Virus record (IMG/VR): IMGVR_UViG_3300021138_000161
Coordinates: 1-24,831 of that record
DNA from: a virus
Length of the DNA stretch: 24,831 nucleotides
Strand: one strand, 5' to 3'
Made by a program: the position numbers and the translations under genes. Of this stretch, positions 4,000 to 24,831 are shown piece by piece; position 1 is the first letter of the stretch, and each line of letters starts with the position of its first letter. Below the pieces are notes generated by a model. It ran no database searches, was not told where the DNA came from, and saw only the letters and a program-made list of their open reading frames with translations.

Positions 4000-4104
4000 G
4001 GTAGAGATATAGATGTCGATAGGCCAAGGGTTAGTAGGTCGATCATAACTAATTTCGTTACGGAATCAACTTTGATGTCGAATCACCTCATATATATCTC
4101 TACC
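4000..4104 (-). ncRNA. Long-range hairpin with 12-bp perfect stem
   Basis: GGTAGAGATATA (4000-4011) and its exact complement TATATCTCTACC (4093-4104) enclose 81 bases with no open reading frame of note. The interior holds two near-direct copies of GATGTCGAT (about 4012 and 4073). It lies between the tRNA-like element and the membrane-peptide gene and is transcribed leftward with them. A folded leader or processed small RNA is inferred. Confidence 0.4.
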
Positions 4105-4106
4105 GT

Positions 4107-4145
4107 GCCCCGCTAGGAATCGAACCTAGATTAACCATTCGGGGC
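4107..4145 (-). other. Mini tRNA-like element lacking D and anticodon arms
   Basis: On the minus strand, GCCCCG at the 5' end pairs with CGGGGC at the 3' end, and a canonical T arm lies between them: CTAGG stem, TTCGATT loop, CCTAG. Only ten bases (AATGGTTAAT, resembling a D loop) separate the 5' strand from the T arm, so no anticodon arm is present. The 3' end reads A then CGG, with no encoded CCA. It may be a deleted tRNA, a tRNA mimic processed by RNase P, or the 3'-tRNA identity segment of an attachment site. Confidence 0.5.
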
Positions 4146-4150
4146 TGCTA

Positions 4151-4417
4151 TTACCAATTCCGTGAGTGGAATCGTTCCATAGCCTCTGACTCTGTCTCAA
4201 AGTAATGGCCTGTAAGACAACGACCACTATCGTGATTGTAAGTCCAAACCACATAGGGCTTGGCTGTGCTGTTTGGGGCATGGCATACGATTACAGAGTT
4301 AACATCATAGGCTAATGATGGCTTGCAATCAATCACCCTTGCTCCAGTTGATACGCCATTGTCACCCTGCAAAATAATGCCGGGGGCAAGCGTGTCTATG
4401 ATTGGATTATCTGTCAT
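4151..4417 (-). CDS. Unknown 88-aa protein
   Basis: ATG at 4417 with GAAGGGAAAGGT directly upstream, nearly the same leader as the 162-aa gene at 1698-2186. The sequence is mixed alpha/beta, with strands VNSVIVCHAP and PYVVWTYNH and a helical end (ETESEAMERFHSRN). No family recognised. It is the last gene before the tRNA-like element, whose 5' end lies 5 nt beyond the stop. Confidence 0.75.
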   Translation of the reverse strand: MTDNPIIDTLAPGIILQGDNGVSTGARVIDCKPSLAYDVNSVIVCHAPNSTAKPYVVWTYNHDSGRCLTGHYFETESEAMERFHSRNW

Positions 4418-4708
4418 ACCTTTCCCTTCATCTCTTCACCATGAAGAGTAAGAGACAGAGATAGTCATAGTCGGATCAGTCTATAGTCTTGTTTCGATGG
4501 CGATTATCGCGACGGTATTCCATCTACTCCCAGAAGTAACACTTAGACAGGCACATCCTCTCGATTTACCCGTTTTCACCACTCTTCCTTTTGCGTAACT
4601 ATAGTGGAGGACTACCCATAACTCCGTTATGGATAGAGTCGATAACTATCAACTATCTCTGCCTTTTACCCTGCATGGTGAGCGCGGGCGGGATTGTTTG
4701 TGTTGAAA
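4418..4708. other. Mostly non-coding gap with dyads
   Basis: No strong gene is visible. A weak leftward candidate (GTG at 4579 to stop at 4481, 32 aa, after AAGGAAG) is possible but unconvincing. A perfect dyad, CCATAAC-TCC-GTTATGG, lies at 4616-4632. GGGATTG and CAATCCC (4690-4720) flank a CAACACAAACA copy. A segment at about 4653-4695 is repeated imperfectly at 5124-5170. Confidence 0.4.
4695..4705 (-). repeat. CAACACAAACA motif, copy 4 (intergenic)
   Basis: Lies 4 nt after the stop codon of the 35-aa zinc gene, on the transcript-sense strand, inside a 7-bp inverted repeat (GGGATTG ... CAATCCC). Confidence 0.7.
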
Positions 4709-6742: not shown

Positions 6743-7180
6743 ATGGCTACTATGAACTATGTCTATACACAACCTACCACTATCAACACTATTTATCCTG
6801 GGTTCAATCGCTGGGCTATTGGATTTGATCCACTACTCAATACGCTGGGTCAGATTTCTCAAGCGAAGGATAACTATCCACCTTATAACATCCGCAAGGA
6901 CGGGGATAAATACATCCTTGAAATGGCCTGTGCGGGCTTCTCTAAGGATGAACTCTCGGTTACGGTCAAAGAGCTTACTCTGACTGTCTCAGGTACAAAA
7001 GAAGGCGAATCAGAGGACTACCTCTATCAGGGCATTTCAGCTCGCAACTTCTCTAGGAACTTCGCTCTAGCAGAATACGTCGTCATCAAGGGTGCAAAAC
7101 TTATTGACGGGCTGCTGACAATCACAATGGAACAAGAGCTTCCAGAGGAGAAGAAGGAGAAGACAATCACTATTAAGTGA
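6743..7180 (+). CDS. Hsp20/alpha-crystallin small heat-shock protein
   Basis: A 145-aa protein with an IbpA/Hsp20-type layout: a short N-terminal arm containing FDPLLNTLG, then the alpha-crystallin domain from about residue 48 (YNIRKDGDKYILEMACAGF, KDELSVTVKELTLTVSGTK, NFSRNFALAEYVVIKGAKL, DGLLTITMEQELPEE). It ends with an ITIK tail, where the I-x-I motif sits. These proteins hold unfolding proteins in large oligomers without ATP. Small heat-shock proteins occur in other phages, notably cyanophages. CTAAGGAG precedes the ATG. It is the first gene of the rightward arm and so is probably expressed early. Confidence 0.93.
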   Translation: MATMNYVYTQPTTINTIYPGFNRWAIGFDPLLNTLGQISQAKDNYPPYNIRKDGDKYILEMACAGFSKDELSVTVKELTLTVSGTKEGESEDYLYQGISARNFSRNFALAEYVVIKGAKLIDGLLTITMEQELPEEKKEKTITIK

Positions 7181-7449: not shown

Positions 7450-7520
7450 TCCCGAATCGTATAACGGTAGTACAGGTGCCTCTGGAGCACTCAGTTGTGG
7501 TTCGAATCCATGTTCGGGAG
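7450..7520 (+). tRNA. tRNA-Gln (CTG)
   Basis: A 71-nt cloverleaf: acceptor TCCCGAA/TTCGGGA, D arm GTAT-AACGGTA-GTAC, anticodon arm GGTGC-CTCTGGA-GCACT with anticodon CTG, T arm TGTGG-TTCGAAT-CCATG with G-U pairs, and discriminator G. CCA is not encoded. It lies 56 nt after tRNA-Asn; I see no further tRNA in the spacer. Confidence 0.95.
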
Positions 7521-7542
7521 CTGGATAGGATAGGATCTATAT

Positions 7543-7722
7543 ATGAATGAACAAGAGAAAGAGCATGCTCGTAAGTTAGTCCAGCAGGCTAAGCAAGGTC
7601 TTAGCCAGTCAATTGATGCAACGCTGGCTGAGAACAAAGATATCTTAGATAAGCTTGGTTCAGACTTCGATGAGAATGGTGTACCCTACTGGTGGAAGTC
7701 TCAACAAGTGAGTGAGGATTAA
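7543..7722 (+). CDS. Unknown 59-aa helical protein
   Basis: ATG at 7543, 22 nt after tRNA-Gln, with AGGATAGGAT upstream. The product is charged and helical (NEQEKEHARKLVQQAKQGL, DATLAENKDILDKLG) with an aromatic end (GVPYWWKSQQVSED). No family recognised. It is followed one base later by the next gene, so translation is probably coupled. Confidence 0.7.
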   Translation: MNEQEKEHARKLVQQAKQGLSQSIDATLAENKDILDKLGSDFDENGVPYWWKSQQVSED

Positions 7723-7723
7723 T

Positions 7724-7894
7724 ATGTTCGCAGTACTAATCGGCGTCATCGTTGGCGTACTGACATCAAAACTCTTCGCGAAAGCGCGTCCGACTGTAGA
7801 GGATGAGGTTAAGATCCCTTGTTCTGCATGTGGTCGCACTTATTGGACTGGACGTCAGAACATTAGATCTCAAAACTACTGTGGGATCTGCTAA
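7724..7894 (+). CDS. Membrane-anchored small zinc-ribbon protein
   Basis: A 56-aa product from the ATG at 7724 (GAGG six bases upstream; a GTG at 7712 is possible but lies inside the previous gene). Residues 1-18 (MFAVLIGVIVGVLTSKLF) form a hydrophobic anchor. The C-terminus has CSACGRTYW and YCGIC, a C-x2-C / C-x2-C zinc ribbon. This predicts a ribbon held at the inner face of the membrane. The stop overlaps the next start (TAATG). Confidence 0.75.
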   Translation: MFAVLIGVIVGVLTSKLFAKARPTVEDEVKIPCSACGRTYWTGRQNIRSQNYCGIC

Positions 7895-8061
7895 TGCCTA
7901 CCTTTGATTATAAGTGTATGAAGTGTGATTCGGTCGTAGAGATGCACATTTCCTCCTCTGCAACCGATACGATCTACTGTACTAGCTGCCAAGGTGTCAT
8001 GACCAAGCAATACACCCCTCCCGCTGTGATCTTTCGTGGTGGTGGCTGGGGCGGTCAATAG
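7894..8061 (+). CDS. FmdB-like zinc-ribbon protein
   Basis: A 55-aa protein beginning MPTFDYKCMKC with a second pair CTSC and ending FRGGGWGGQ. This matches the FmdB family of small putative regulators (M-P-x-Y/F-x-Y-x-C-x-x-C, a second CxxC, and F-x-G-x-G-W near the end). The biochemical role of the family is unclear, but such ribbons often contact nucleic acid or RNA polymerase. The start is coupled to the preceding gene by TAATG. Confidence 0.85.
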   Translation: MPTFDYKCMKCDSVVEMHISSSATDTIYCTSCQGVMTKQYTPPAVIFRGGGWGGQ

Positions 8062-8106
8062 TCTGTATCTCTGCTAGACTATCAATAACTACTAGAGAGG
8101 GCTGTA

Positions 8107-8682
8107 ATGACAACTCTTGCCGCGTTTCAAGGTGATGGATGGGCTGTAATCGGAGCGGATTCACGAGCTACCGATGATTCAGGAGAAGTATTTGTTCTTG
8201 GAAACCCAAAAATATCTATCAATGGCCCTTACATATTTGCTGTAACCGGCGCTTCCCGTGGTGGAAACTTAGTTCAACAAGGTTGGGTCCCGCCAAAACC
8301 GCCCGCGACTACCGATGTGAACAAGATTGACATCTTTATGACGAGAAAATTCATTCCGTCGATGCGTAAGTTATATATGGATGCAGGTTATGACGCCAAA
8401 GATGATGGTGAGGCCGCATACACAGACTCTGCACTGCTCGTTGCAGTCAAAGGAATCATTTATCCGATCTTCCAAGACTATTCTTGGGACAGAGATGCCC
8501 GCCGAATTTATAACGGTGGCTCCGGTGGATCAATTGCACTAGGTGCTATGGTTGCACAAGGCATTGAAAAGGTACGTACACCTGAAGCCGCCGAAAAGAT
8601 TATTCGCAAATCAATTGAAATCTCCACTGAGTGGAATGCTTATTGCATGCCTCCAGTTATTACTCACATTCAGAGAGCGTAA
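8107..8682 (+). CDS. Proteasome beta/HslV-like Ntn peptidase
   Basis: A 191-aa protein beginning MTTLAAFQGDGWAVIGADSR. After removal of Met, Thr becomes residue 1. Asp then falls at position 17 (ADSR) and Lys at about 34 (NPKI, one residue off the usual 33), the catalytic set of proteasome beta subunits and HslV. A Gly-rich loop (VTGASRGG, 46-53) and GGSGGS (137-142, near the usual Ser129) also fit. No propeptide is present, so it would be active on folding, as HslV is. AGAGAGGGC precedes the ATG. No ATPase partner is adjacent; it could use host Mpa or ARC, or act alone. It may degrade host proteins or serve in virion maturation. Confidence 0.85.
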   Translation: MTTLAAFQGDGWAVIGADSRATDDSGEVFVLGNPKISINGPYIFAVTGASRGGNLVQQGWVPPKPPATTDVNKIDIFMTRKFIPSMRKLYMDAGYDAKDDGEAAYTDSALLVAVKGIIYPIFQDYSWDRDARRIYNGGSGGSIALGAMVAQGIEKVRTPEAAEKIIRKSIEISTEWNAYCMPPVITHIQRA

Positions 8683-9124: not shown

Positions 9125-9931
9125 ATGCCATATGGTAGCGGCGGCGGTCAGGACATGGTCCGGGCCTCAAGCAGAAGCGGCAATCTAGTAAGCGGCATTA
9201 TGGGCGCTGCACTAGGCGCCTACAAAGATGCTAACGAACGACTTGCAGATCGTCATGAATTTGATTACCGTCAAAACCGTCGTGATGACTCTATGATTAA
9301 ACAACGTGCTGCAGATGCTGCACTCCATCATATGAAGAACAATAGTGATTACTCTGTTGCAGATAAGTGGATGAAACAACATGGATCTGATTGGTCTAAA
9401 GATCCTGAAACAGGAAAATTAAAAAGAACAACCCGTCGTGGAGCAAAAGCAGGTAAGTTTGCTGCCGGTGGTGGTACAGGTTATTCTGCTGATCTTGTTG
9501 AAAACACTCGTTTAAAGAAAGAAATTCAAGAACTTAAATTTAAACAAAAGCAAAATGATGCAGCTGCTGGTATGGGTAATAAGAAAAAGGGTAAGGGTGC
9601 AGGAACAACACCTGCCACAAAAAACCCTGGATCAAACATTACTCCCCCTGTTGGTGGAAAGAAAACAAATAATAAAGCTAAAGGTCTTCCTGCTAAGAAT
9701 TCTGGAAAGATAACTCCCCCACCTGCAGAACCATCATCTCCTGGTTTTAATGGTGGGCCAACCTTCGATGGTGAAGGAAATAATACTCAAAGCGCTGCCG
9801 GTAAGGCGTACGCTAAGAAGAAAGCCCAAGCTGCGGGTAAGGTTACACTCCCCAAACCTGTTGCAGCAAAGAAAGCAACTACAGCTAAAAAAGCAACGAC
9901 TTCTAAGAAAAGCACCGGAGGAACAATCTAA
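9125..9931 (+). CDS. Unknown 268-aa protein with Lys-rich histone H1-like tail
   Basis: The N-terminal 75 residues contain a Gly-rich helix pair (SGNLVSGIMGAALGAYKDANER) and a charged helix. The middle is a coiled coil (NTRLKKEIQELKFKQKQND). The last 120 residues are Lys/Ala/Pro/Gly repeats (AAKKATTAKKATTSKKS) like histone H1 or AlgP tails. The start ATG at 9125 lies 19 nt after the zinc gene, with AGGATTCGGG upstream. The tail suggests DNA or RNA binding, perhaps condensation during packaging. The stop overlaps the next start (TAATG). No family recognised. Confidence 0.8.
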   Translation: MPYGSGGGQDMVRASSRSGNLVSGIMGAALGAYKDANERLADRHEFDYRQNRRDDSMIKQRAADAALHHMKNNSDYSVADKWMKQHGSDWSKDPETGKLKRTTRRGAKAGKFAAGGGTGYSADLVENTRLKKEIQELKFKQKQNDAAAGMGNKKKGKGAGTTPATKNPGSNITPPVGGKKTNNKAKGLPAKNSGKITPPPAEPSSPGFNGGPTFDGEGNNTQSAAGKAYAKKKAQAAGKVTLPKPVAAKKATTAKKATTSKKSTGGTI

Positions 9932-11949
9932 TGGCAAAAAGCGGCAACCGCGTAATGAAGCAAAAGACGGAGAAGGCAAAGGCGCAAGCACGTGATGCCT
10001 ATAAGGGTCGTCAGCTTGGTATGGCTGTTCCTGAAGACTATCGTAAAGAGTCTGTGCACGTATTAGAACGCCCATCTAAAGAAGAGCGCGAAGCTCAAAA
10101 TGAAGCCGATGCTATTAGCCGTAATAAAGCTGCAGAGGAGCTAAATGCTGCCGATAAAAGGGCTGCCAGAACTGTCTCAGGCAAAACGGTTAAAGCAAAG
10201 CCATTAAAGCTTGAAGAAAAAGATTATAAGCACAAGTCTAATGCGGATCACCAGTCTGTACTTCCTGTTGTAGAAAAGAAGGCAAAGCGTCGCCAAGCTG
10301 AAAAAGAGCTTGGAATGGGATTATCGCGTGTTACTAGAAGTGGCAGCATTCAACCCCTAGTAGGTACTGAAAAAGAAAAAGCTCAAAATATCCTTGTAGC
10401 TAACGATAAAGAACTTTTAAAGGAAACAGCAAAGCGTGCGGCTGCACGTGATGAAAAGGCCTCTAAAGTAGACCTTACCCCAAATCAAAAGAAAGAGCGT
10501 ACACAACGTCAATTAAAGCGTTTTGCAAAAGACTACGCTATTAAACAAGCTAGTGGTAAAAGCGTAAGTCTTCCCGCTGCTGAGTCTGGCACTGCTGCAC
10601 CTGGTCAGGCTCCAAAGAACAGAACAACTAAGTCTTTAAAGGTAAAAAAGACTTACAACAAAAAGACTGGAAGAACCAACGTAACATCAACTGGTGGCGC
10701 ACAGGTATTTCCTGGTGATGGTAAAGCTGGAATCTTAGATCTAGGTAATGTTGCTCCAGCAGTAGGCGCTGCACCGGCAGTTGGAAGTCGTAGAGAGAAG
10801 CAAGCTCGACGTCGTCAAGAATACCGTATTAAAAAGGGTGTTTTATCTCCTGAGCCTAAAAAGAGCAAAAATGGAAAAATTAGTAAAAAAGAGCGTGAAA
10901 GAGGGCGTGTTCGTAACAATTATGCAAAGCAGCTTGAAGGAAATCCGGCAGCAGCTGCCGCTGTAAATGAGCGTAAGCGTTCTAAGATTGAAAATACAGA
11001 TAAGCTTGCTAGAACTCGTGCGGGACGCATTGATGCTGAACGCGATATGTTGAAGGGCTCTTTGTTAGAAAAAGCAACTTCTATGGCTCCGGGAACTCCT
11101 GGTCGTGCAAAGCTTGCTGAAACAGCATTTAAATTAATTCAAGAACCTAAACAGACAAAGACTCTTAGAGAAGCTATTAAGTCTGGAGAAGGCGATTCTG
11201 CTCTAGATTCAAGAGTTGTATCTAAAGACGGTTCTGGTCTTGATAAGAAAGTCACATATCGTTCAGGGCCTAAATTTAGTAAGGTTGTTGGGGATGTAAA
11301 TAATCCAGATCTTACAAAAACCCCTAAAACTGTTAAGGCTGATATTGGTGCCCCACGTTTGACTGAACAAGTTCAGGCAGCAGGAAACCACCCAGTACGA
11401 TTAACTGGTCGCAAAAAGGATCCAGTCACTGGTGAACTTCGTGGAACAGGGCATATTGAGCTTCAGACAGCTAAGCAAGTTTATGAAACCCCTCAAAGCA
11501 TAAAGGGAACAGTTGAAGATAAGAAGTGGCATATTCAGCAGAATATCCGTGTAAAGCATGAAAAGGGTGATTCACCTATTGAGCCAAAGTACCTTAACAG
11601 CTATATTAAGGATTTTGCTCAAAAGAATAAGCTTGATCATAACACCGCTGTTCACGTAATGCGTATGGCACATTTAGAGCATCAATCTCACGAAGCTAGT
11701 GGTGGGAAGCGCGGAAATCCAAAGCCATGGCAGACGATTACTTCCGGAGCTATTGAGCATCGTAAGCGCCGTATCGGTACAGAAACTGAGATTAAAGAGC
11801 GCTCTACAGCTAAGCAGAGTATGAAGAAGGCAGAAGCCAAGGAGCAACGCGGTGGAGGCAATAACACCAAGAAGGTAAGAGCTGAGACTCTTGCTAATAA
11901 GGTGCTTAGTAAGTTTACTGCGGTAGACGATGGCTCCAAGAAAGCGTAA
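9931..11949 (+). CDS. Unknown 672-aa very basic protein
   Basis: The longest gene in the window. Nearly the whole product is rich in Lys, Arg, Ala and Glu, with few hydrophobic clusters (SKEEREAQNEADAISRNKAA, REKQARRRQEYRIKKG, SKKERERGRVRNNYAKQ). The C-terminal 170 residues seem more ordered (DKKWHIQQNIRVKHEKGD, YIKDFAQKNKLDHNTAVHVM). No catalytic motif is seen. The start is coupled to the previous gene by TAATG. It may be a virion-associated or DNA-binding protein, possibly working with the basic protein before it; this is inference from charge and position. Confidence 0.8.
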   Translation: MAKSGNRVMKQKTEKAKAQARDAYKGRQLGMAVPEDYRKESVHVLERPSKEEREAQNEADAISRNKAAEELNAADKRAARTVSGKTVKAKPLKLEEKDYKHKSNADHQSVLPVVEKKAKRRQAEKELGMGLSRVTRSGSIQPLVGTEKEKAQNILVANDKELLKETAKRAAARDEKASKVDLTPNQKKERTQRQLKRFAKDYAIKQASGKSVSLPAAESGTAAPGQAPKNRTTKSLKVKKTYNKKTGRTNVTSTGGAQVFPGDGKAGILDLGNVAPAVGAAPAVGSRREKQARRRQEYRIKKGVLSPEPKKSKNGKISKKERERGRVRNNYAKQLEGNPAAAAAVNERKRSKIENTDKLARTRAGRIDAERDMLKGSLLEKATSMAPGTPGRAKLAETAFKLIQEPKQTKTLREAIKSGEGDSALDSRVVSKDGSGLDKKVTYRSGPKFSKVVGDVNNPDLTKTPKTVKADIGAPRLTEQVQAAGNHPVRLTGRKKDPVTGELRGTGHIELQTAKQVYETPQSIKGTVEDKKWHIQQNIRVKHEKGDSPIEPKYLNSYIKDFAQKNKLDHNTAVHVMRMAHLEHQSHEASGGKRGNPKPWQTITSGAIEHRKRRIGTETEIKERSTAKQSMKKAEAKEQRGGGNNTKKVRAETLANKVLSKFTAVDDGSKKA

Positions 11950-13132: not shown

Positions 13133-13741
13133 ATGACACTCCCAGTAGATAATAGCGGAAACGTAGCCGTTGACTTTGTATGGGGTAACTTCCCTATCCA
13201 ACCAGATCAGGCCCGTACCGGATCCGGAGCTTCTGTAGTCGTTGCAAACAACGCAGCTCAGAACCACGGATGGTCAGGATACTCTGTATATCCAAGCTCA
13301 ACCCTTACAGAAAATAACACCACAGTAACTCTTAATCAGCTTTCCTACACTGTAGCCCCAGATAACCATGTTATTGCATATCAGGGCTGGAACTCGTACC
13401 CATCAACAGACGCACAGTCTGGTGTACTTCCAAGTCAGATGCCTTGGTCACCAATTACCTATGTAAGCGGTTCAGGCGTTGTTTCTGGTGCTTCATATGT
13501 AACTGTTCCAAACGTTATTGGAAATAACGTACAGGGTGCAGAAGATGCCCTACACGTTGCTGGCCTTGACGTAGTAATCGCTACTCGCACCTCTGGTGCA
13601 ACACTTGCAAACCACGACACTGTATACAGCCAGAGCATTGCGGCTGGTGCTTCTAGCATCGCTCAGGGCACTTCTGTTACAATCACAGTTTACAAGTTCC
13701 ACGATGCCTCAACTAACCCAGCAGGAAACATTAACGGATAA
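13133..13741 (+). CDS. Structural-type protein with C-terminal PASTA domain
   Basis: A 202-aa protein. Residues 1-120 are Asn/Ser/Thr/Val-rich and beta-like, with repeated Trp/Tyr (VDFVWGNFP, NHGWSGYSVYPS, AYQGWNSYPS), as in decoration or fibre proteins. Residues 122-188 form a PASTA domain (YVTVPNVIGNNVQGAEDALH, then AGLDVVIATR and GTSVTITVYKF). PASTA domains bind muropeptides and occur in actinobacterial Ser/Thr kinases and penicillin-binding proteins. AAAGGTAATAA precedes the ATG, and a strong terminator follows 16 nt after the stop. It may be an exposed virion protein that touches the cell wall. Codon use resembles that of the capsid gene. Confidence 0.8.
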   Translation: MTLPVDNSGNVAVDFVWGNFPIQPDQARTGSGASVVVANNAAQNHGWSGYSVYPSSTLTENNTTVTLNQLSYTVAPDNHVIAYQGWNSYPSTDAQSGVLPSQMPWSPITYVSGSGVVSGASYVTVPNVIGNNVQGAEDALHVAGLDVVIATRTSGATLANHDTVYSQSIAAGASSIAQGTSVTITVYKFHDASTNPAGNING

Positions 13742-13786: not shown

Positions 13787-14305
13787 TTATACCGTCTTTA
13801 AGAAGGCATTAACGGCATAGTTGTCGGTTCTATACCGGTTGTAATAGTTAACGTGCCAAGGACTGAAGTCCTTGCCGTGACCACTCATGGAGTAGGCAAT
13901 CTCGGCGTTAACTAGGGGATTTTTTAAGGCATTCCTAGACTTTAAGCAATAGTAGGAAACCCGGTACTTTAAAGCACCGTATAGATTGATCTGAAATAGT
14001 CCATAAGAATCATCACCGGTTCTAGGGTTGAGATTGTGAGTTCCAGGATGTCCTTGCGACTCTTTCATAGCAACCCCGTAGGCAACACGAAGCGCTTGAC
14101 CTTTAAAACCCACATATTTGAGTAAATAAAGGAGCTGAGCTTTAGTTAGGGTTTTGGCCTTTAGTAAGGCTGTGATTGGATCTACGGCTACTTTATGGGC
14201 TACTGGTTTTACTACAGTAGCTGGTAAGGCGTATGCCGTATTTGCGATGCAGGTGAGTGCTGCAAAGATGAGACAAAATATTCTATTTTTTGCATTTATA
14301 AACAC
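13787..14305 (-). CDS. Secreted lysozyme/transglycosylase-like protein
   Basis: A 172-aa protein from GTG at 14305 (TAGGAG about seven bases upstream). Residues 1-26 form a Sec signal peptide (basic NAKNR, hydrophobic FCLIFAALTCIA, cleavage after AYA). The mature part has the lysozyme-fold pattern: VAYGVAMKESQGHPG with probable catalytic Glu82, then DDSYGLFQINLYG (about 99-111) and a Tyr/Asn-rich end with WHVNYYNRY. It should cleave peptidoglycan outside the membrane. It is the only leftward gene in the rightward arm, ends at a shared terminator and needs its own promoter. A signal-exported endolysin or a superinfection or entry function are options. Confidence 0.85.
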   Translation of the reverse strand: MFINAKNRIFCLIFAALTCIANTAYALPATVVKPVAHKVAVDPITALLKAKTLTKAQLLYLLKYVGFKGQALRVAYGVAMKESQGHPGTHNLNPRTGDDSYGLFQINLYGALKYRVSYYCLKSRNALKNPLVNAEIAYSMSGHGKDFSPWHVNYYNRYRTDNYAVNAFLKTV

Positions 14306-15941: not shown

Positions 15942-16161
15942 GTCGGTAAAGCGCGAACTTAGCCGTATTCAAAAGCGAATTCAGTACCTTAGCAATGATG
16001 ATCTAGCTGCTTGGGCTGAAAGTTCTATCTATGACGTAGCACGCAATATCTCAGGTTGGCGTAAGCACCAAGATTCATTTCATTTAAAAGAGGCTACCAT
16101 GGCTGCAGAAGTCCTATTCGAGGCTCTAAATACCATTAGTCGGAGAGAAGAAAATGCGTGA
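15901..16161 (+). CDS. Unknown 86-aa helical basic protein
   Basis: Begins at ATG 15901 or, equally plausibly, at ATG 15913 (MISLKFKRRKSV); neither has a clear Shine-Dalgarno. The product is basic at the start (KFKRRKSVKRELSRIQKRIQ) and helical afterwards (DDLAAWAESSIYDVARNISG). It overlaps the previous gene by up to 41 nt and the terminase gene by 8 nt. A short basic helical protein directly before terL fits a small terminase or DNA-binding adaptor, but no motif proves it. Confidence 0.7.
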   Translation: MGQRMISLKFKRRKSVKRELSRIQKRIQYLSNDDLAAWAESSIYDVARNISGWRKHQDSFHLKEATMAAEVLFEALNTISRREENA

Positions 16162-17857
16162 GGATTTTGAATTTAATGACTTCGAAGAAGAGGACGACTC
16201 TTCCTCCGATTTTGACATGGAGAGCGTTTATGAATACGACGATGACGAAGAAGAAGAGTTCGATGACGAAGAAGATTTTGAAGATGATTTTGATTCCGAT
16301 GATTCTGACGATTCTGATGACTTCACTCCCCTTCATGAAGAAGACTTTGAAGAAGAAGACGATGAGCTTGATGAGCTATCTAGAGAGTTCGTTAATTCAC
16401 TTGTAGACAAAATCATGTCCTTTATGAAGCTTCTTGTAGGGCACGATCTTCATCCCTACCAAAAGCCTCTTGCTAGAAGAATTATTGAGTCTGTAATCAT
16501 TAATGACGGCGAGGAAGTTACTGCCCTTGCCTCACGTCAGTCTGGAAAGTCTGAAACTGTTGCGGATACCGTGGCGACTCTTATGGTGATCCTTCCACGC
16601 CTAGCCAAGATGTACCCAGATCTTTTGGGTAAATTTGGGGATGGCATTTGGGTAGGCATGTTTGCCCCAGTCCAGGCACAGGCAGAAACCTTGTATGCAA
16701 GAACAGTATCTCGGCTTACAAGTGAGCAGGCACTAGAGGTACTTGGCGACCCAGAAATTGATGACACTACGGCTAAAAGTCCGGGAGTTACTAGAAACAT
16801 CCGTCTAAAGAACTCAGGATCATCCCTAATGATGATGACCGCCAACCCACGAGCTAAGATTGAATCTAAGTCATTCCATCTCATAATTATTGATGAGTGC
16901 CAAGAAGCTGATGACTTTATCGTTTCTAAGTCAATTGCTCCTATGGGAGCTTATTACAATGCTACCTTGGTAAAAACTGGCACTCCAACTACCCATAAGA
17001 ACAACTTCTACCGATCAATCCAGTTTAATAAACGACGTCAGACTGGAAGAACTTCTAAGCAAAATCACTTCCAGTGGGACTGGAAAGACGTTGCAAAGTT
17101 CAACCCTAACTATGAAAAGTTTATTAAAAAGGAAATGCTCCGTATTGGTGAGGACTCCGATGAGTTCCAGCTATCGTACAACTGCAAATGGCTTCTTGAG
17201 CGCGGTATGTTCGTAACGGGTTCGGTTATGGATGACCTTGGAGATACTTCACAGGAGATCCAAAAGTCATACCACATGTCTCCGGTTGTTGTTGGAATTG
17301 ATCCAGCACGTAAGATGGACTCCACTGTAGTTACAGTCGTATGGGTTGACTGGGATCGTCCGGATGAATTCGGGTATTACGACCATCGTGTCCTTAACTG
17401 GCTAGAGATCCAGGGAGATGATTGGGAAGAGCAATACTTCCAGATTGTAAACTTCTTAGGAAACTACGATGTCTATGCTGTAGCGGTTGATGCCAACGGT
17501 GTGGGAGATGCCGTAGCCCAACGTTTAAAGATGCTTCTTCCTAGAGCTGAAGTTATGTCTATTACTTCTAGCCCTACCGAGCAATCCAAGCGTTGGAAAC
17601 ACCTGCAAGCCCTAATTCAACGTCAGCTAATATCCTGGCCAGCTCACGCTAAGACGCGCCGACTCCGTATTTGGAAGCGTTTCTACCAACAGATGACAGA
17701 TGCCGAAGTTCAATACAAGGGCCCTAACTTTTTGGTAGCTGCCCCAGAAGAGGCTCACGCCCACGATGACTTTGTAGATTCCTTGGCCTTGGCATGTTCC
17801 CTGACTCAAGAGTTGGTTATGCCAACTGTGGAAGTTAGCTCTTCTCCGTTCTTTTAA
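16154..17857 (+). CDS. terL: Terminase large subunit with acidic N-terminal tail
   Basis: A 567-aa packaging motor. The ATPase has a Walker A variant SRQSGKS at 128-134 and Walker B LIIIDE at 243-248, followed by the coupling motif TGTPTT at 275-280. The RNase H-like nuclease has GIDPARKMDS (D383), VAVDANG (D446) and HDDFVDSLALA (D538/D539). It cuts concatemeric DNA and pumps it into the prohead at the portal. Residues 1-75 are unusual: 46 of 75 are Asp or Glu with Ser spacers (DDDEEEEFDDEEDFEDDF), so the tail is disordered and strongly negative. GGAGAGAAG precedes the ATG. Confidence 0.97.
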   Translation: MREDFEFNDFEEEDDSSSDFDMESVYEYDDDEEEEFDDEEDFEDDFDSDDSDDSDDFTPLHEEDFEEEDDELDELSREFVNSLVDKIMSFMKLLVGHDLHPYQKPLARRIIESVIINDGEEVTALASRQSGKSETVADTVATLMVILPRLAKMYPDLLGKFGDGIWVGMFAPVQAQAETLYARTVSRLTSEQALEVLGDPEIDDTTAKSPGVTRNIRLKNSGSSLMMMTANPRAKIESKSFHLIIIDECQEADDFIVSKSIAPMGAYYNATLVKTGTPTTHKNNFYRSIQFNKRRQTGRTSKQNHFQWDWKDVAKFNPNYEKFIKKEMLRIGEDSDEFQLSYNCKWLLERGMFVTGSVMDDLGDTSQEIQKSYHMSPVVVGIDPARKMDSTVVTVVWVDWDRPDEFGYYDHRVLNWLEIQGDDWEEQYFQIVNFLGNYDVYAVAVDANGVGDAVAQRLKMLLPRAEVMSITSSPTEQSKRWKHLQALIQRQLISWPAHAKTRRLRIWKRFYQQMTDAEVQYKGPNFLVAAPEEAHAHDDFVDSLALACSLTQELVMPTVEVSSSPFF

Positions 17858-18681: not shown

Positions 18682-20400
18682 ATGAGCATTGACTTTAGTC
18701 CTCCGTCTTATAGAGCTGCGTCCTCTGACCTAACTATCTCTATTTCCCCACTGGGACTTGTAGAGCTTGCTGATGAAGAATTTGAAGTTCATGGTCCACG
18801 TCTAAATCGCTACTCTCTTAACTGGGCAATGTATTTAGGACACCACTGGCCCTATCGCCGCGAGCTTGGCGAATCACAGATGGTTTATAACTATTACCGC
18901 GCCTTTACAGATTACATAATTAACTTTACATTTGGACGTGGAGCAGCTTTCCGCAGCCCACATGCAACAGAGGCAATAGTTCCAGACATTCTAAAAAGAG
19001 TCTGGGAAGTAGATAATGATAAGCATGGCGTACTCTGGGAGATGGGTCAACAAGGCGGCGTATCAGGAGACTGCTTTGTTAAAGTAGCCTATGAAGAGCC
19101 TTTTAAAGATACCGTTGGTCGTCAGCATCCGGGTAAGGTACGTGTCCTTCCACTAAACGCTTCATTCTGTTTTCCAGAGTTTCACCCACATGATCGTTCA
19201 AGACTTATTCGTTTTAAGCTTAAGTACCGCTTTTGGGGCACGTCTCTAGAGGGAACTCGTCAGGTTTACACCTATACAGAAATCCTTACAGATGACCGCA
19301 TTGAAGAGTACATCAACGATGAGCTCATTGACTCACGTCCAAACCCAATTGGCGTAGTCCCAATTATTCATATCCCTAACGTACGTGTTTCAGGATCCCC
19401 TTGGGGACTTTCTGATTGCCATGACCTAATTGTTCTAAACCGTCAGTATAACGAAGTTGCTACTGATATCGCAGACATCATTAACTACCATGCGGCACCC
19501 GTTACAGTTATTACCGGTGCTAAGGCCTCGTCCCTAGAAAAGGGACCTAAGAAGGTCTGGGGCGGTCTTCCTAAAGACGCCCAAGTCTTTAACCTAGAAG
19601 GTGGCGGCCAAGGTCTAGAAGGCGCCATGAAATATCTAGAAACAGTTAAAAGATCAATGCATGAGATGATCGGTGTACCAGAAACTGCATTGGGTCAGAT
19701 TCAACCCATCTCTAATACCTCTGGAACCGCCCTTGCTATTCAGTTCCAGCCTTTGATGAATCGATACCAGCAGAAGGTAATTCAATATGGTGAAGGACTT
19801 CGTCGCATTAATGAGCTAGTTCTTTTAACCATTGGTCTTAAAGAACCTCAGCTATTTACATATAACCCAGATTTTAATGGCCCTATCCGTGGAGATCAGC
19901 TACCACAGCTTGATCCAAATGATCCTATGACCTATCAGTCGTATGTACATTTCCCACAGCCATTGCCTCTTGATAAGCTTATTGTTCTTAGTGAGATCCA
20001 GACCAAGATGTCTATGAACCTAGAGAGCCGTAAGGGCGCTCTACGTGCTCTTGGTGAGGAGTTCCCAGATCTTAAGCTTGAAGAAATCCGCACTGAGCTT
20101 ATTGAGGATGCCAAGTCTGACGGCGCACTCAACCTACTAAAGGCTCAAGTCAACGCAGCTATTGCATCTCTAACGGGCATCATGCCAGACGGTGGTGGAG
20201 AACTACCTCCTGGAGCAGAGCCTGGAGATGGAACCGGTCCTGGACCTTCTGGACAACCTGGAGTAATCACCCCATTTGAGGCGGAGACTCTAGACCAGAT
20301 GGCCAACGACTTGGTCACCAAGGCCTACGGAACAACACTTCCAAAGGCTAGAAGTGGCGAAGATGATACCAGTCAGGACTCTAAGTATCCTGAAGGGTAA
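18682..20400 (+). CDS. Portal protein
   Basis: A 572-aa protein of the SPP1-gp6-like portal type. Supporting features are MVYNYYRAFTDYIINFTFG (the early helix), QQGGVSGDCFVKVAYEEP, the crown/stem region with IPNVRVSGSPWGLSDCHDLI, and EMIGVPETALGQ with NTSGTALAIQFQPLM (the conserved GVPxxxLG ... SGxALxxxxxPL pattern). It forms the dodecameric ring at one capsid vertex that docks the terminase and later the neck. The C-terminus is Gly/Pro/Asp-rich. It lies directly before the scaffold and capsid genes, the usual order. Confidence 0.95.
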   Translation: MSIDFSPPSYRAASSDLTISISPLGLVELADEEFEVHGPRLNRYSLNWAMYLGHHWPYRRELGESQMVYNYYRAFTDYIINFTFGRGAAFRSPHATEAIVPDILKRVWEVDNDKHGVLWEMGQQGGVSGDCFVKVAYEEPFKDTVGRQHPGKVRVLPLNASFCFPEFHPHDRSRLIRFKLKYRFWGTSLEGTRQVYTYTEILTDDRIEEYINDELIDSRPNPIGVVPIIHIPNVRVSGSPWGLSDCHDLIVLNRQYNEVATDIADIINYHAAPVTVITGAKASSLEKGPKKVWGGLPKDAQVFNLEGGGQGLEGAMKYLETVKRSMHEMIGVPETALGQIQPISNTSGTALAIQFQPLMNRYQQKVIQYGEGLRRINELVLLTIGLKEPQLFTYNPDFNGPIRGDQLPQLDPNDPMTYQSYVHFPQPLPLDKLIVLSEIQTKMSMNLESRKGALRALGEEFPDLKLEEIRTELIEDAKSDGALNLLKAQVNAAIASLTGIMPDGGGELPPGAEPGDGTGPGPSGQPGVITPFEAETLDQMANDLVTKAYGTTLPKARSGEDDTSQDSKYPEG

Positions 20401-20517: not shown

Positions 20518-21285
20518 ATGTCAGAACAGGCAACCGTTGTTGATACAGCTGTAGCACAAGAAGCCTTCCAGGCCGAAGTAACTTCAGCAGTAGAAAACAC
20601 TCAAACCGTTACACCCGTCCAATCACAGTCAGGAAAGTCATACACAGAGGAAGACCTTCGTAAGGTCCGTGAGCAAGAGAAATCAAAGCTCTACCCTCAA
20701 ATTGACTCGCTTAAGGAAGAACTAAATATCCTTAAGAAGGACCGTGAAGAACGACTCGCTGAGGCAGAACGTGCCCGTGTCGAGCAAGAAGCAGACGCCC
20801 GTAAGAAGGCAGAAGCTGAGATGGATGTCCGCAGTCTTCTCGAAACAAAAGAACGAGAGTGGGCGGAGAAGTTGGAAGCAGAACGCTTAGAGCGTGAAAA
20901 AGCTTTCCTACTCCTAGATCGTGAGCGTCAGTATTCAGAACTAACAGAATACCGCACTGCACGACTTCAACAGGAGCAAGATAATATTCTTCCTGAGCTA
21001 CTTGATTTAATCTCTGGAAATTCCAAAGATGAAATCGACCAGAGTATCTTAGGGTTAAAGGAACGATCAGCTCGTATCCTTGATTCAGCGCAAGCAGCTA
21101 CCCAGAGTTTGCGTCGAGAGATGACGGGGACAAGAACTACTTTGCCCCCTACCTTGGAAAACAACTCGGATCAACAACAGTTTACAGCGGAACAAATTGC
21201 CGCTATGTCGGTTGCTGACTATGCAAAATACCGTTCGCGTTTGATCCCAAATCTAAACGCAAACGGCAAGGGAATTTTTGGGTAA
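20518..21285 (+). CDS. Capsid scaffolding protein
   Basis: A 255-aa protein with a long central coiled coil (about residues 45-150, Glu/Lys/Arg/Leu-rich, for example EERLAEAERARVEQEADARK) and a C-terminal segment (DYAKYRSRLIPN) that would touch the capsid. Position (between portal and capsid), size and composition match phage scaffolds, which shape the prohead and then leave or are degraded. AAGGAATAACT precedes the ATG. The proteasome-like peptidase at 8107 could in principle remove it, but that is speculation. Confidence 0.9.
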   Translation: MSEQATVVDTAVAQEAFQAEVTSAVENTQTVTPVQSQSGKSYTEEDLRKVREQEKSKLYPQIDSLKEELNILKKDREERLAEAERARVEQEADARKKAEAEMDVRSLLETKEREWAEKLEAERLEREKAFLLLDRERQYSELTEYRTARLQQEQDNILPELLDLISGNSKDEIDQSILGLKERSARILDSAQAATQSLRREMTGTRTTLPPTLENNSDQQQFTAEQIAAMSVADYAKYRSRLIPNLNANGKGIFG

Positions 21286-21325: not shown

Positions 21326-22402
21326 ATGGCATCAGCCGTAACAGGTACCGGCAATCTCGCCGCAGCACCTACAGCTTATTCTGGCGCTAACAGCCAGCTG
21401 ACTCAGGCGATTCAGACCATCTGGTCAAAGGAAATCCTTTTCCAGTCAATGCCTATCCTCCGCTTCGAACAGTTCGCTGTTAAGAAGACTGAGCTAGGCG
21501 TCGCCCCAGGTCTCCAGATCAACTTCATGCGTTACAACAACCTCGGATTCGCTTCAGCTCTTGTTGAAGGTGTCCGTATGTCAACTAACGCTTTGACAGC
21601 ACAGCAGTTCTCGATCACAGTTGCAGAACATGGTTATGCAATTGCAGTATCAGAGCTTCTTCTTAACGCATCATTCGATGACGTTATGGCATCAGCATCA
21701 CGTCTTCTTGGACGTAACATGGCTCTCTATCTTGATGGCCAGGCTCGTGACACCCTCATGGCTGCTTCTTCAGTCATCTACGGTTACGATCGCACAGGTA
21801 TCTCAGGTGTTAACAGCTGGTACGACAATGGAACCGCAGCAACATCACGCGCTTCATTGACCGGTTCTTCATACCTCACAACTGCGACAGTTAAAGACGC
21901 AGTAGAGACCCTCGCAACCAAGAACATCCCTCGGTTGGGCGAAACTTATGTTGCTTTCGTTCACCCTCACCAATCACGTCGTCTTCGTGACAATTCAGAA
22001 TTTATTGAAGTCACCAAGTACGCTGCTCCAGGAAACTTCATGCTCGGTGAAGTCGGCCGTCTCTATGACACCGTATTCATTGAGACCACTCAGGTCAAGA
22101 AGACCCCAGGTGGTGCTGGTTCAGGTTACACAACCGACACAGCAGTAGCTCCAGGATCAATCTCTTACCCAACTGGTGGAGGTTACACAACCCCAACAAC
22201 AGTTACCGGTAACGGTGCAGCAGATCGCTATAGCGCAATCTTCATTGGAGATAACGCATTCGGTCACGCTATCTCACTCCCAGTCGAACTCCGCGATGGC
22301 GGTATTCTTGACTTCGGTCGTGAGCACGCATTGGCTTGGTACGCAATCTATGGTCTTGGCCTTATTACAGATCAGTCTGTAATCATCGCAGAAACCAACT
22401 AA
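21326..22402 (+). CDS. Major capsid protein, N4-gp56 family
   Basis: A 358-aa protein with hallmarks of the N4-gp56 branch of HK97-fold capsids: an N-terminal arm (TQAIQTIWSKEILFQSMPIL), GLQINFMRYNNLGF, ALVEGVRM, and the late beta region TYVAFVHPHQSRRLRD. About 415 copies would be expected for a T=7 shell, but the T number is unknown. AAGGAGTAAAACCGAC lies upstream. Codons are strongly biased (CTC, CGT, TCA, GTC), as usual for the most expressed phage gene. A 10-bp hairpin follows its stop. Confidence 0.95.
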   Translation: MASAVTGTGNLAAAPTAYSGANSQLTQAIQTIWSKEILFQSMPILRFEQFAVKKTELGVAPGLQINFMRYNNLGFASALVEGVRMSTNALTAQQFSITVAEHGYAIAVSELLLNASFDDVMASASRLLGRNMALYLDGQARDTLMAASSVIYGYDRTGISGVNSWYDNGTAATSRASLTGSSYLTTATVKDAVETLATKNIPRLGETYVAFVHPHQSRRLRDNSEFIEVTKYAAPGNFMLGEVGRLYDTVFIETTQVKKTPGGAGSGYTTDTAVAPGSISYPTGGGYTTPTTVTGNGAADRYSAIFIGDNAFGHAISLPVELRDGGILDFGREHALAWYAIYGLGLITDQSVIIAETN

Positions 22403-22953: not shown

Positions 22954-24054
22954 GTGGCAAATATTCAAACCCTGTCTAACAGGCTTAGAACAGAAATCGG
23001 TGACATCGGCCGATCCTTTATAGAACAATTTACAGGGGATGGCGTTACAAGCCAATTCCAGCTACCCTATGCTCCAGTCAAGGGAATAAGCCTTAGAGTT
23101 ACAGTTAATGGCACTGATGTGTCTAATACAACCTCCGTAGAAGAGGTAAGTGGGCTTTTCCAACTTGGAATTATTCCCAGCAATAATGCTGTAATTAAGG
23201 TTAGTGGAGTTGCATATAAGTACTTTACGGATACAGAAATCCAGTACTACATTAGCCAGGCTTTCTATGATCATTCGCACAATGCTACTGATAGCAATGG
23301 GGCTACAACAACCCTAGCTACCCTGCCTTTTGTGGAGGAATATCCACTTGTAATTTTGGCTACCTCAATGGCCTTGTACACCCTTGCTACAGACGCCGCA
23401 TTTGATATTGACATTATTTCTCCAGATGGCGTAAGTATCCCTCGTTCAGAGCGTTATCGCCAGTTAATGGAAGTTGTACAGCAACGAAAAGAACAATACA
23501 GAGAGCTTTGCTCACTTTTGGGTGTTGGTCTCTATCGCATCGAGGTTCTTACCCTACGTCGTATCAGCCGCCGTACAAATCGTTATGTACCTGTATACCG
23601 TCCACAAGAAGTGGACGACGGCTCTATACCGCAACGCGTCTATCTACCTGTTCCAAACTACGGAGATACGACACCACCAGGACCTGCAGAGCCAAAGGAT
23701 CTTGAGCTCATGTCCGGTGATGACTTCTACGAGTCCTTTAAGTTTGACATGGATCTTACAAACTGGACCCCTGCAGCACAGGTTCGTCTATTCCCTGAGA
23801 TACCTGCGGATCAGGTTGGCCCACTATTACTAGCTACATTTACGATTACTAAGAGTGCTTCAGTTACCGGTGGTATACTTGACACTCTAACCATTCACTT
23901 ACCTAGCTCCGTAACAACAGACCTTCCTCATACGGCATATTGGGATCTACAGCTTACAAGTAACGTTGATGGAACAGTTAAGACCTACCTTGCAGGTAAG
24001 GTCTTTACAAAAGCACAAGTAACTATTACTAACCCAGAGGATTACTATGGTTAA
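22954..24054 (+). CDS. Head-tail connector/baseplate-like structural protein
   Basis: A 366-aa protein from GTG at 22954 (TTGGAGGATAA upstream). Residues 1-60 begin with a helix ([14 protein letters not shown]) and a beta module ([20 protein letters not shown]). Residues about 95-190 are helical ([16 protein letters not shown] and [20 protein letters not shown]), like head-tail adaptors. The last 110 residues ([19 protein letters not shown], then [20 protein letters not shown]) resemble the immunoglobulin-like N-terminal module of tail and baseplate proteins. It may link the virion to the fibre encoded next. It overlaps the next gene by 8 nt. Confidence 0.75.
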
Positions 24055-24831
24055 TACACCAAACTTGATCGGTATGCCGTCTGACGATAGTAACGATCCT
24101 TCCGTATATCTTCTTGGAATTAATAACCAAAACGGTGCTACAGGTCCTACAGGAGCTGTAGGCCCACAGGGTGCTACCGGTCCTACAGGAGCCGCTGGTG
24201 CAACTGGCCCTACCGGAGCCAGCATTACCGGTGCAACTGGAGCTACAGGCTCTACTGGCCCAACAGGCTCTACTGGTCCAGCTGGAAATATGGGTCCAAC
24301 CGGTAATACTGGACCTACTGGTTCTCAAGGAAACATTGGTCCTACTGGAGCCACAGGTGCAACTGGTGCAACTGGTGCCGCCTCAACTATTCCTGGCCCT
24401 ACAGGTGCTGCAGGATCTCGTGGTGCTACAGGTGCCACAGGTGCGACCGGTGCCACCGGTGCTACTGGTGCATCTGGCTCTATCGGCGCTACTGGTGCTG
24501 GAGGTCCTGCTGGTGCGACTGGTGCACAAGGACCTACTGGTGCAACTGGTGTTGCTGGTCCTCAGGGTATTCAAGGTAATACCGGTGCGACTGGTGCAAC
24601 AGGTCCACAAGGTATTCAAGGTTCTATTGGACACACTGGTCCAACTGGCTCAACTGGTGCAACCGGTATTCAAGGAAACACGGGTCCTACAGGTGCTACC
24701 GGTAATGCTGGACCTCAGGGTGTAACTGGTCCTCAAGGACCTTTGGGTAATACTGGCCCGCAGGGTGTTCAGGGTATTCAAGGTATTGTTGGCCCTACTG
24801 GTGCAACAGGACAACAGGGTGCTGTAGGTCC
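24047..24831 (+). CDS. Collagen-like fibre protein (cut by window edge)
   Basis: ATG at 24047 with AGAGGATTACT upstream; the frame stays open for 261 codons to the window end. After 27 ordinary residues ([20 protein letters not shown]) it is an almost unbroken run of Gly-X-Y triplets dominated by GAT, GPT, GPQ and GIQ, interrupted near residues 64-65 and 112-115 (for example ASTIPGP). Such repeats form trimeric collagen helices that extend phage tail or head fibres. Thr is very common in the third position, as in other bacterial and phage collagens. The receptor-binding end lies outside the window. Confidence 0.92.

Follow-up and report, generated by a model that had tools for sequence, protein, structure and literature searches.

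The window analysed here, a stretch of 24,831 nucleotides of viral DNA (IMG/VR record IMGVR_UViG_3300021138_000161), carries a gene whose product, according to sequence comparisons and a structural model, belongs to the proteasome/HslV superfamily, as a virus-specific member with an N-terminal threonine. Its branch of that superfamily is confined to viruses and is common among those that infect freshwater actinobacteria, and codon comparisons indicate that the gene is under purifying selection and kept as an enzyme. We put at about one half the probability that the product is an unfoldase-independent peptidase ring resembling BPH, which would act as an accessory infection factor outside both the host proteasome and general head maturation.

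The open reading frame of 191 codons runs from ATG to TAA and its product begins with Met-Thr-Thr (Table 1). A scan for sigma-70 sites around the gene gave no more sites than were found in shuffled sequences. Residues 1-189 matched phrog_1040, 'peptidase HslV family' (E 3e-15), nearly over their full length, and both groups comprise phage-borne proteasome-like peptidases; however, the label is broad and implies an HslU-dependent enzyme, a dependence for which the window peptidase offers no support. Searched alone, the protein matched no Pfam or NCBIfam family, and 18 of 24 relatives matched PF00227 (Proteasome; best 1.6e-7). A profile built from 90 sequences, compared with solved chains, retrieved HslV (6e-11), BPH (1e-8) and bacterial PrcB (8e-5), with Thr2 aligned to mature residue 1 of the HslV and BPH chains. 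The curated HslV models TIGR03692 and NF003964 gave no match for the window protein, and phage relatives scored 15-30 bits against them, versus cut-offs of 137-158; the curated 20S_bact_beta model did not recognise the window peptidase either. Matches to FimD in a phmmer search of the PDB (E 0.04) were spurious and were ignored, and PADLOC returned no defence-family match.

The structure predicted by AF2 on a 90-row alignment had a mean pLDDT of 94.6 and a pTM of 0.90; a model built on the 24 close relatives only (pLDDT 59) was set aside in its favour. In Foldseek comparisons the top solved structure was BPH (5ovs; TM 0.76/0.78, E 4e-11), followed by HslV and 20S beta, and the best viral model reached a TM of 0.94. 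The comparison with 20S beta and HslV proposed in an earlier, sequence-only reading of this DNA thus placed the model within the Ntn-hydrolase fold. BPH has a long acidic pore loop and apparently no unfoldase (PMC5777263). The window model has a long helix H2 (residues 71-92) and, like BPH, a lengthened acidic pore loop that connects H2 to S7; in most of the 24 relatives this loop has 15 residues, with a median net charge of -4. The likeness to BPH comprises the best fold match, the pore loop and the lack of a known unfoldase, whereas the identity is about 20% and BPH is bacterial while the window family is viral. With HslV and 20S PrcB the peptidase shares the fold and the Thr/Asp/Lys active site, but it has no propeptide, and hslU, prcA and pup were not recognised nearby. 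PPH, the proteasome homologue of phages and their hosts, is also a viral proteasome-like protein; however, it has about 140 aa and no helix H2 (PMC8665760), unlike the 191-aa window peptidase with its long modelled H2, which we do not assign to PPH.

The predicted active site has the composition typical of the superfamily: an N-terminal Thr together with the equivalents of Asp17, Lys33 and Gly47, Gly48 (mature Gly47) occupying the oxyanion hole position. The sequence-only reading had located it correctly, with Thr directly after Met, Asp at mature position 17 and a GSGG loop; the Lys that it placed near 33 is residue 34 of the mature protein, a difference of one that this estimate allows for. 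It had also named loss of the catalytic residues in relatives as a result that would overturn its claim; on the contrary, Thr2, Asp18, Lys35, Gly48, Gly138, Gly140 and Gly141 were invariant in 85 of 85 family members. In the set of 90 sequences, which includes distant bacterial and phage homologues, the invariant residues were Thr2, Asp18, Lys35, Arg51, Arg87, Gly94, Asp124 and Gly138. Since relatives had been sought with patterns that included residues 1-8 and roughly 124-132 (the YxWDR stretch), the invariance of Thr2 and Asp124 was partly selected; that of Asp18, Lys35, Gly48 and Gly138/140/141 in the actinophage set was not. Among eight related phages the median dN/dS was 0.086 for the peptidase gene, compared with 0.105 for the portal gene, and positive selection as the source of peptidase divergence was rejected, the ratio being well below 1 in the pairs tested. 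Together with phrog_1040, the family profile and the predicted fold, these conserved residues bear out the original assignment to proteasome/HslV-like peptidases. The statement that the enzyme should be active without a propeptide holds in so far as no propeptide is needed; the expectation of activity itself was premature, because BPH, the closest solved relative, exposes Thr1 and binds epoxomicin, yet showed no activity towards standard peptides or casein (PMC5777263).

Relatives of the window peptidase are encoded in 455 viral-contig stretches (a redundant set), the best 80 of which were examined in detail. A scan of 84,980 species genomes with the family pattern and profile found none, its 24 pattern matches all being unrelated. 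When 90 proteins were placed in a tree, the window peptidase grouped with viral sequences only, in a clade of 24 members (SH-aLRT 99) that adjoins the DSL-LC01-type phage proteins and lies outside HslV and PrcB. This tree, which contained no BPH sequences, was made by a quick method and has long branches, so the precise order of the sister groups is uncertain. The earlier suggestion that the phage had captured a host degradation machine fits neither the all-viral clade nor the species-genome scan. Related branches are present in actinophages, namely DSL-LC01, Arthrobacter Hum25 and the Planktophila phages E7 and F5, and isolated, culturable phages with homologues include E7 and F5 as well as Arthrobacter Hum25 and Pitbull. 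The Planktophila phages LanE43AprE7 and F5 (OX376640 and OX376641) were isolated on a Nanopelagicales host (PMC10202952); the E7 homologue lies at 7500-8036 of OX376640, directly after the portal gene, but the E7 and F5 peptidases are only 31-33% identical to that of the window and form a long branch of their own.

The window clade is also distinct from a clade (SH-aLRT 100) that unites rhizobial, Azospirillum and Streptomyces homologues with phage sequences. From the published distribution, we infer that this other clade corresponds to AAH of Fuchs et al. (PMC8665760), a family that the 2021 survey found in no Actinobacteria-specific phage (PMC8665760). The window peptidase resembles AAH in its Met-Thr start, in its length (AAH has about 180 aa) and in its occurrence in many phages, AAH being found in bacteria as well, with about 19-28% identity; nevertheless the RADRK and FTSSFRMGQ motifs are missing from it, its residue 48 is Gly rather than the Ser of many AAH, a GWxPPxP loop and a YxWDR motif are present, and the tree placed it outside AAH. 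One AAH-type homologue, at 4001-4546 of locus L090 on a Sinorhizobium americanum plasmid, is flanked by nifQ on one side and by an iron-sulfur assembly/nifS cluster on the other, a neighbourhood that suggests a link of the rhizobial homologue with nitrogen fixation.

The window itself most likely derives from a BRock-like phage of an actinobacterium, since its sequence includes a WhiB gene and a terminase, capsid and scaffold like those of BRock and LuckySocke. This agrees with the actinobacterial origin supposed at the outset (terminase 52% and capsid 74% BRock-like). Several other genes were observed around the peptidase gene. A small FmdB-like gene also occurs in locus L034 (8484-8651), about 1.4 kb 5ʹ of the peptidase gene, and a member of the same cluster in L085. 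Shortly after the window peptidase gene, two lysine-rich, very basic proteins (pI about 10.2; 268 and 672 aa) are encoded at 9125-11949 on the plus strand, neither with a PHROG or Pfam match. A PASTA-domain protein at 13133-13741 (+) is related (33%) to proteins that L004 and L006 encode just 3ʹ of their peptidase genes, and a lysozyme-like (SLT_3) protein at 13787-14305 is encoded on the minus strand within an otherwise plus-strand late region. A long collagen-like repeat at 24041-24831 (+), whose frame is open past the window end, probably belongs to a tail-fibre protein. The repeat also gives rise, in another frame, to the 184-aa ORF listed at 24171, which is an artefact.

Table 1. Location of the peptidase gene, its predicted functional elements and other genes of the window.
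Feature	Position	Strand	Remarks
WhiB transcription factor, actinobacterial phage marker	2198..2512	-	homology
Hsp20 small heat-shock protein, 5ʹ of the peptidase gene	6743..7180	+	homology
FmdB-family zinc-ribbon ORF, directly 5ʹ of the peptidase gene	7894..8059	+	55 aa; ends GGGWGGQ
Ribosome-binding-like sequence (AGAGAGG stretch), 5ʹ of the peptidase ATG	8090..8106	+	read directly
Peptidase gene, N-terminal-threonine proteasome/HslV-like	8107..8682	+	191 aa; Thr2, Asp18, Lys35, Gly48, GSGG 138-141
Codon of Thr2, predicted nucleophile (Thr1 once Met is removed)	8110..8112	+	conservation, profile alignment
Codon of Asp18 (mature Asp17)	8158..8160	+	conservation
Codon of Lys35 (mature Lys34)	8209..8211	+	conservation
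Acidic pore loop, codons 93-107, helix H2 to next strand	8383..8427	+	15 residues, net charge -4
Terminase large subunit	16154..17857	+	50-52% identical to Streptomyces BRock/LuckySocke group
Portal protein	18682..20400	+	homology
Scaffolding protein	20518..21285	+	36% identical to LuckySocke gp77
Major capsid protein	21326..22402	+	72-74% identical to BRock group

In 56 of 84 relatives only 15-20 nt separate the portal gene from the peptidase gene that follows it, and these portal-adjacent relatives share a cassette in the order terminase-portal-peptidase-...-scaffold-capsid, related to that of Streptomyces Beephvirinae. In the window, as in L015, L034, L063, Hum25 and DSL-LC01, the gene lies in other regions, away from the portal. 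Portal and peptidase have dissimilar histories: the portals of L062 and L012 are 90% identical and their peptidases 52%, those of E7 and L062 are 83% and 31% identical, respectively, and for L003 and L062 the values are 70% for the portal and 80% for the peptidase. Compared block by block, the DNA of L062 and L012 is mostly about 80-90% identical through the portal gene, falls to 51-68% over a stretch that begins at the portal end, spans the peptidase gene and extends slightly beyond it, and then returns to 84%; the drop is centred on the peptidase gene. The lineage of the window gives a similar picture, as its terminase is 81-84% identical to those of L004 and L006, two IMG/VR virus contigs that both carry the peptidase gene, but the peptidases are only 57-59% identical. 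Judged from these sequences, at least three dissimilar peptidases have occupied the slot next to the portal gene, while the portal stayed alike. A host-facing substrate would account for repeated exchange in one slot better than a target among the structural proteins of the phage, and the independence of the exchange may speak against a tight fit to those proteins and for a substrate that is host-facing or general. Here our argument is weakest, as plain recombination in the absence of an arms race can also yield incongruent gene histories.

The adjacency to the portal gene first suggested a general head-maturation protease, and a peptidase of virion morphogenesis, which would trim portal, scaffold, ejection or other head proteins or be packaged in the particle, was weighed as the main alternative. 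The slot within the terminase-portal-...-scaffold-capsid cassette argues for such a role and thereby counts against an accessory factor, and a ClpP-type protease was found in none of 16 records, 15 of which also had no S78 prohead protease over the cut-off. However, head-maturation protease homologues coexist with the peptidase in two carriers, DSL-LC01 (phrog_18402) and an L015-type phage (phrog_3270 and phrog_80, just 5ʹ of its probable capsid gene), and the complete genomes of the Streptomyces phages FlowerPower and LuckySocke, whose capsids are homologous, lack the peptidase gene and gave no S78 or ClpP match. The gene is, moreover, away from the portal in the window and in DSL-LC01, Hum25 and L015/L034-type phages, and its versions were exchanged independently of the portal. 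Thus, in the relatives the peptidase neither goes with the capsid type nor serves as the sole head protease, and we conclude from them, the window genome being incomplete, that it is not a general head-maturation protease; removal of the scaffold, raised in the sequence-only reading, has to be given up as a general role on the same grounds. A part in virion assembly or in the particle is rather unlikely. The 'peptidase' gp42 of LuckySocke, considered as a counterpart, proved unrelated. In L300 (IMGVR_UViG_3300042549_001262), from an L015-type phage that carries the peptidase as well, a 613-aa protein at 740-2581 matches head-maturation protease families and lies just 5ʹ of a probable capsid gene.

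It is highly improbable that the protein works as an adaptor of the host proteasome, with subunits that would enter host PrcB rings, take their place, or bind to host Mpa/ARC. The superfamily is the same and some Actinomycetota do possess proteasomes, PF00227 being present in 131 of 296 sampled; but the window clade is separate from PrcB, on long branches, and no alpha subunit, Pup-like protein or ATPase was recognised in the 24.8-kb fragment. PF00227 is absent from over half of the sampled Actinomycetota, including all listed genomes below 1.6 Mb, and HslU was found in 1 of 296. None of 19 phage records had a Clp/HslU-type AAA_2 (PF07724) match over the cut-off. It is therefore unlikely that the peptidase forms mixed rings with the host particle or uses a host ATPase, as envisaged earlier. 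Weak, scattered AAA-family matches in 11 of the 19 phage records, together with the limited length of the fragment, leave room for a partner ATPase. A quality-control peptidase that clears aggregated or misfolded protein during infection together with Hsp20 is distinctly unlikely: an Hsp20 gene does lie 0.9 kb 5ʹ of the peptidase gene on the same strand, and L006 also has a homologue close 5ʹ, but blastp found a homologue of the window Hsp20 in only 1 of 84 related loci and there are no fused or overlapping genes. The superfamily also contains connectase (PMC8665760) and BPH is inert on general substrates (PMC5777263), which would suit a specific processing enzyme or protein ligase rather than a degradative one; the compact AF2 model, however, has no large connectase-type helical S3/S4 insertion, and we consider this very unlikely.

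In the BPH-like mechanism that we favour, removal of Met would expose Thr1, and Thr1, together with Asp17, Lys34 and the backbone of Gly47, would act as an Ntn-type nucleophile. By analogy with BPH, the subunits may self-assemble into a two-ring barrel, its entrance presumably lined by the long acidic loops, so that unfolded or specific substrates could enter without an AAA+ unfoldase. The particle would then degrade host proteins, such as defence or regulatory ones, or misfolded proteins during infection. A bolder version, in which an exchangeable viral particle of this kind, either produced in the infected cell or delivered to it, destroys specific host (e.g. defence) proteins and phages of freshwater actinobacteria trade its versions after the portal gene as hosts change, we regard as fairly unlikely in its full form.

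Phage homologues of the proteasome have been known by sequence, with no demonstrated function in the available published accounts. What is new here is a virus-only branch, common in virus contigs, with a fixed slot and exchanged versions. The versions exchanged at this fixed slot amount to natural swap experiments, and through the isolated phages the role of a free-standing proteasome-like barrel becomes testable in lytic infection.
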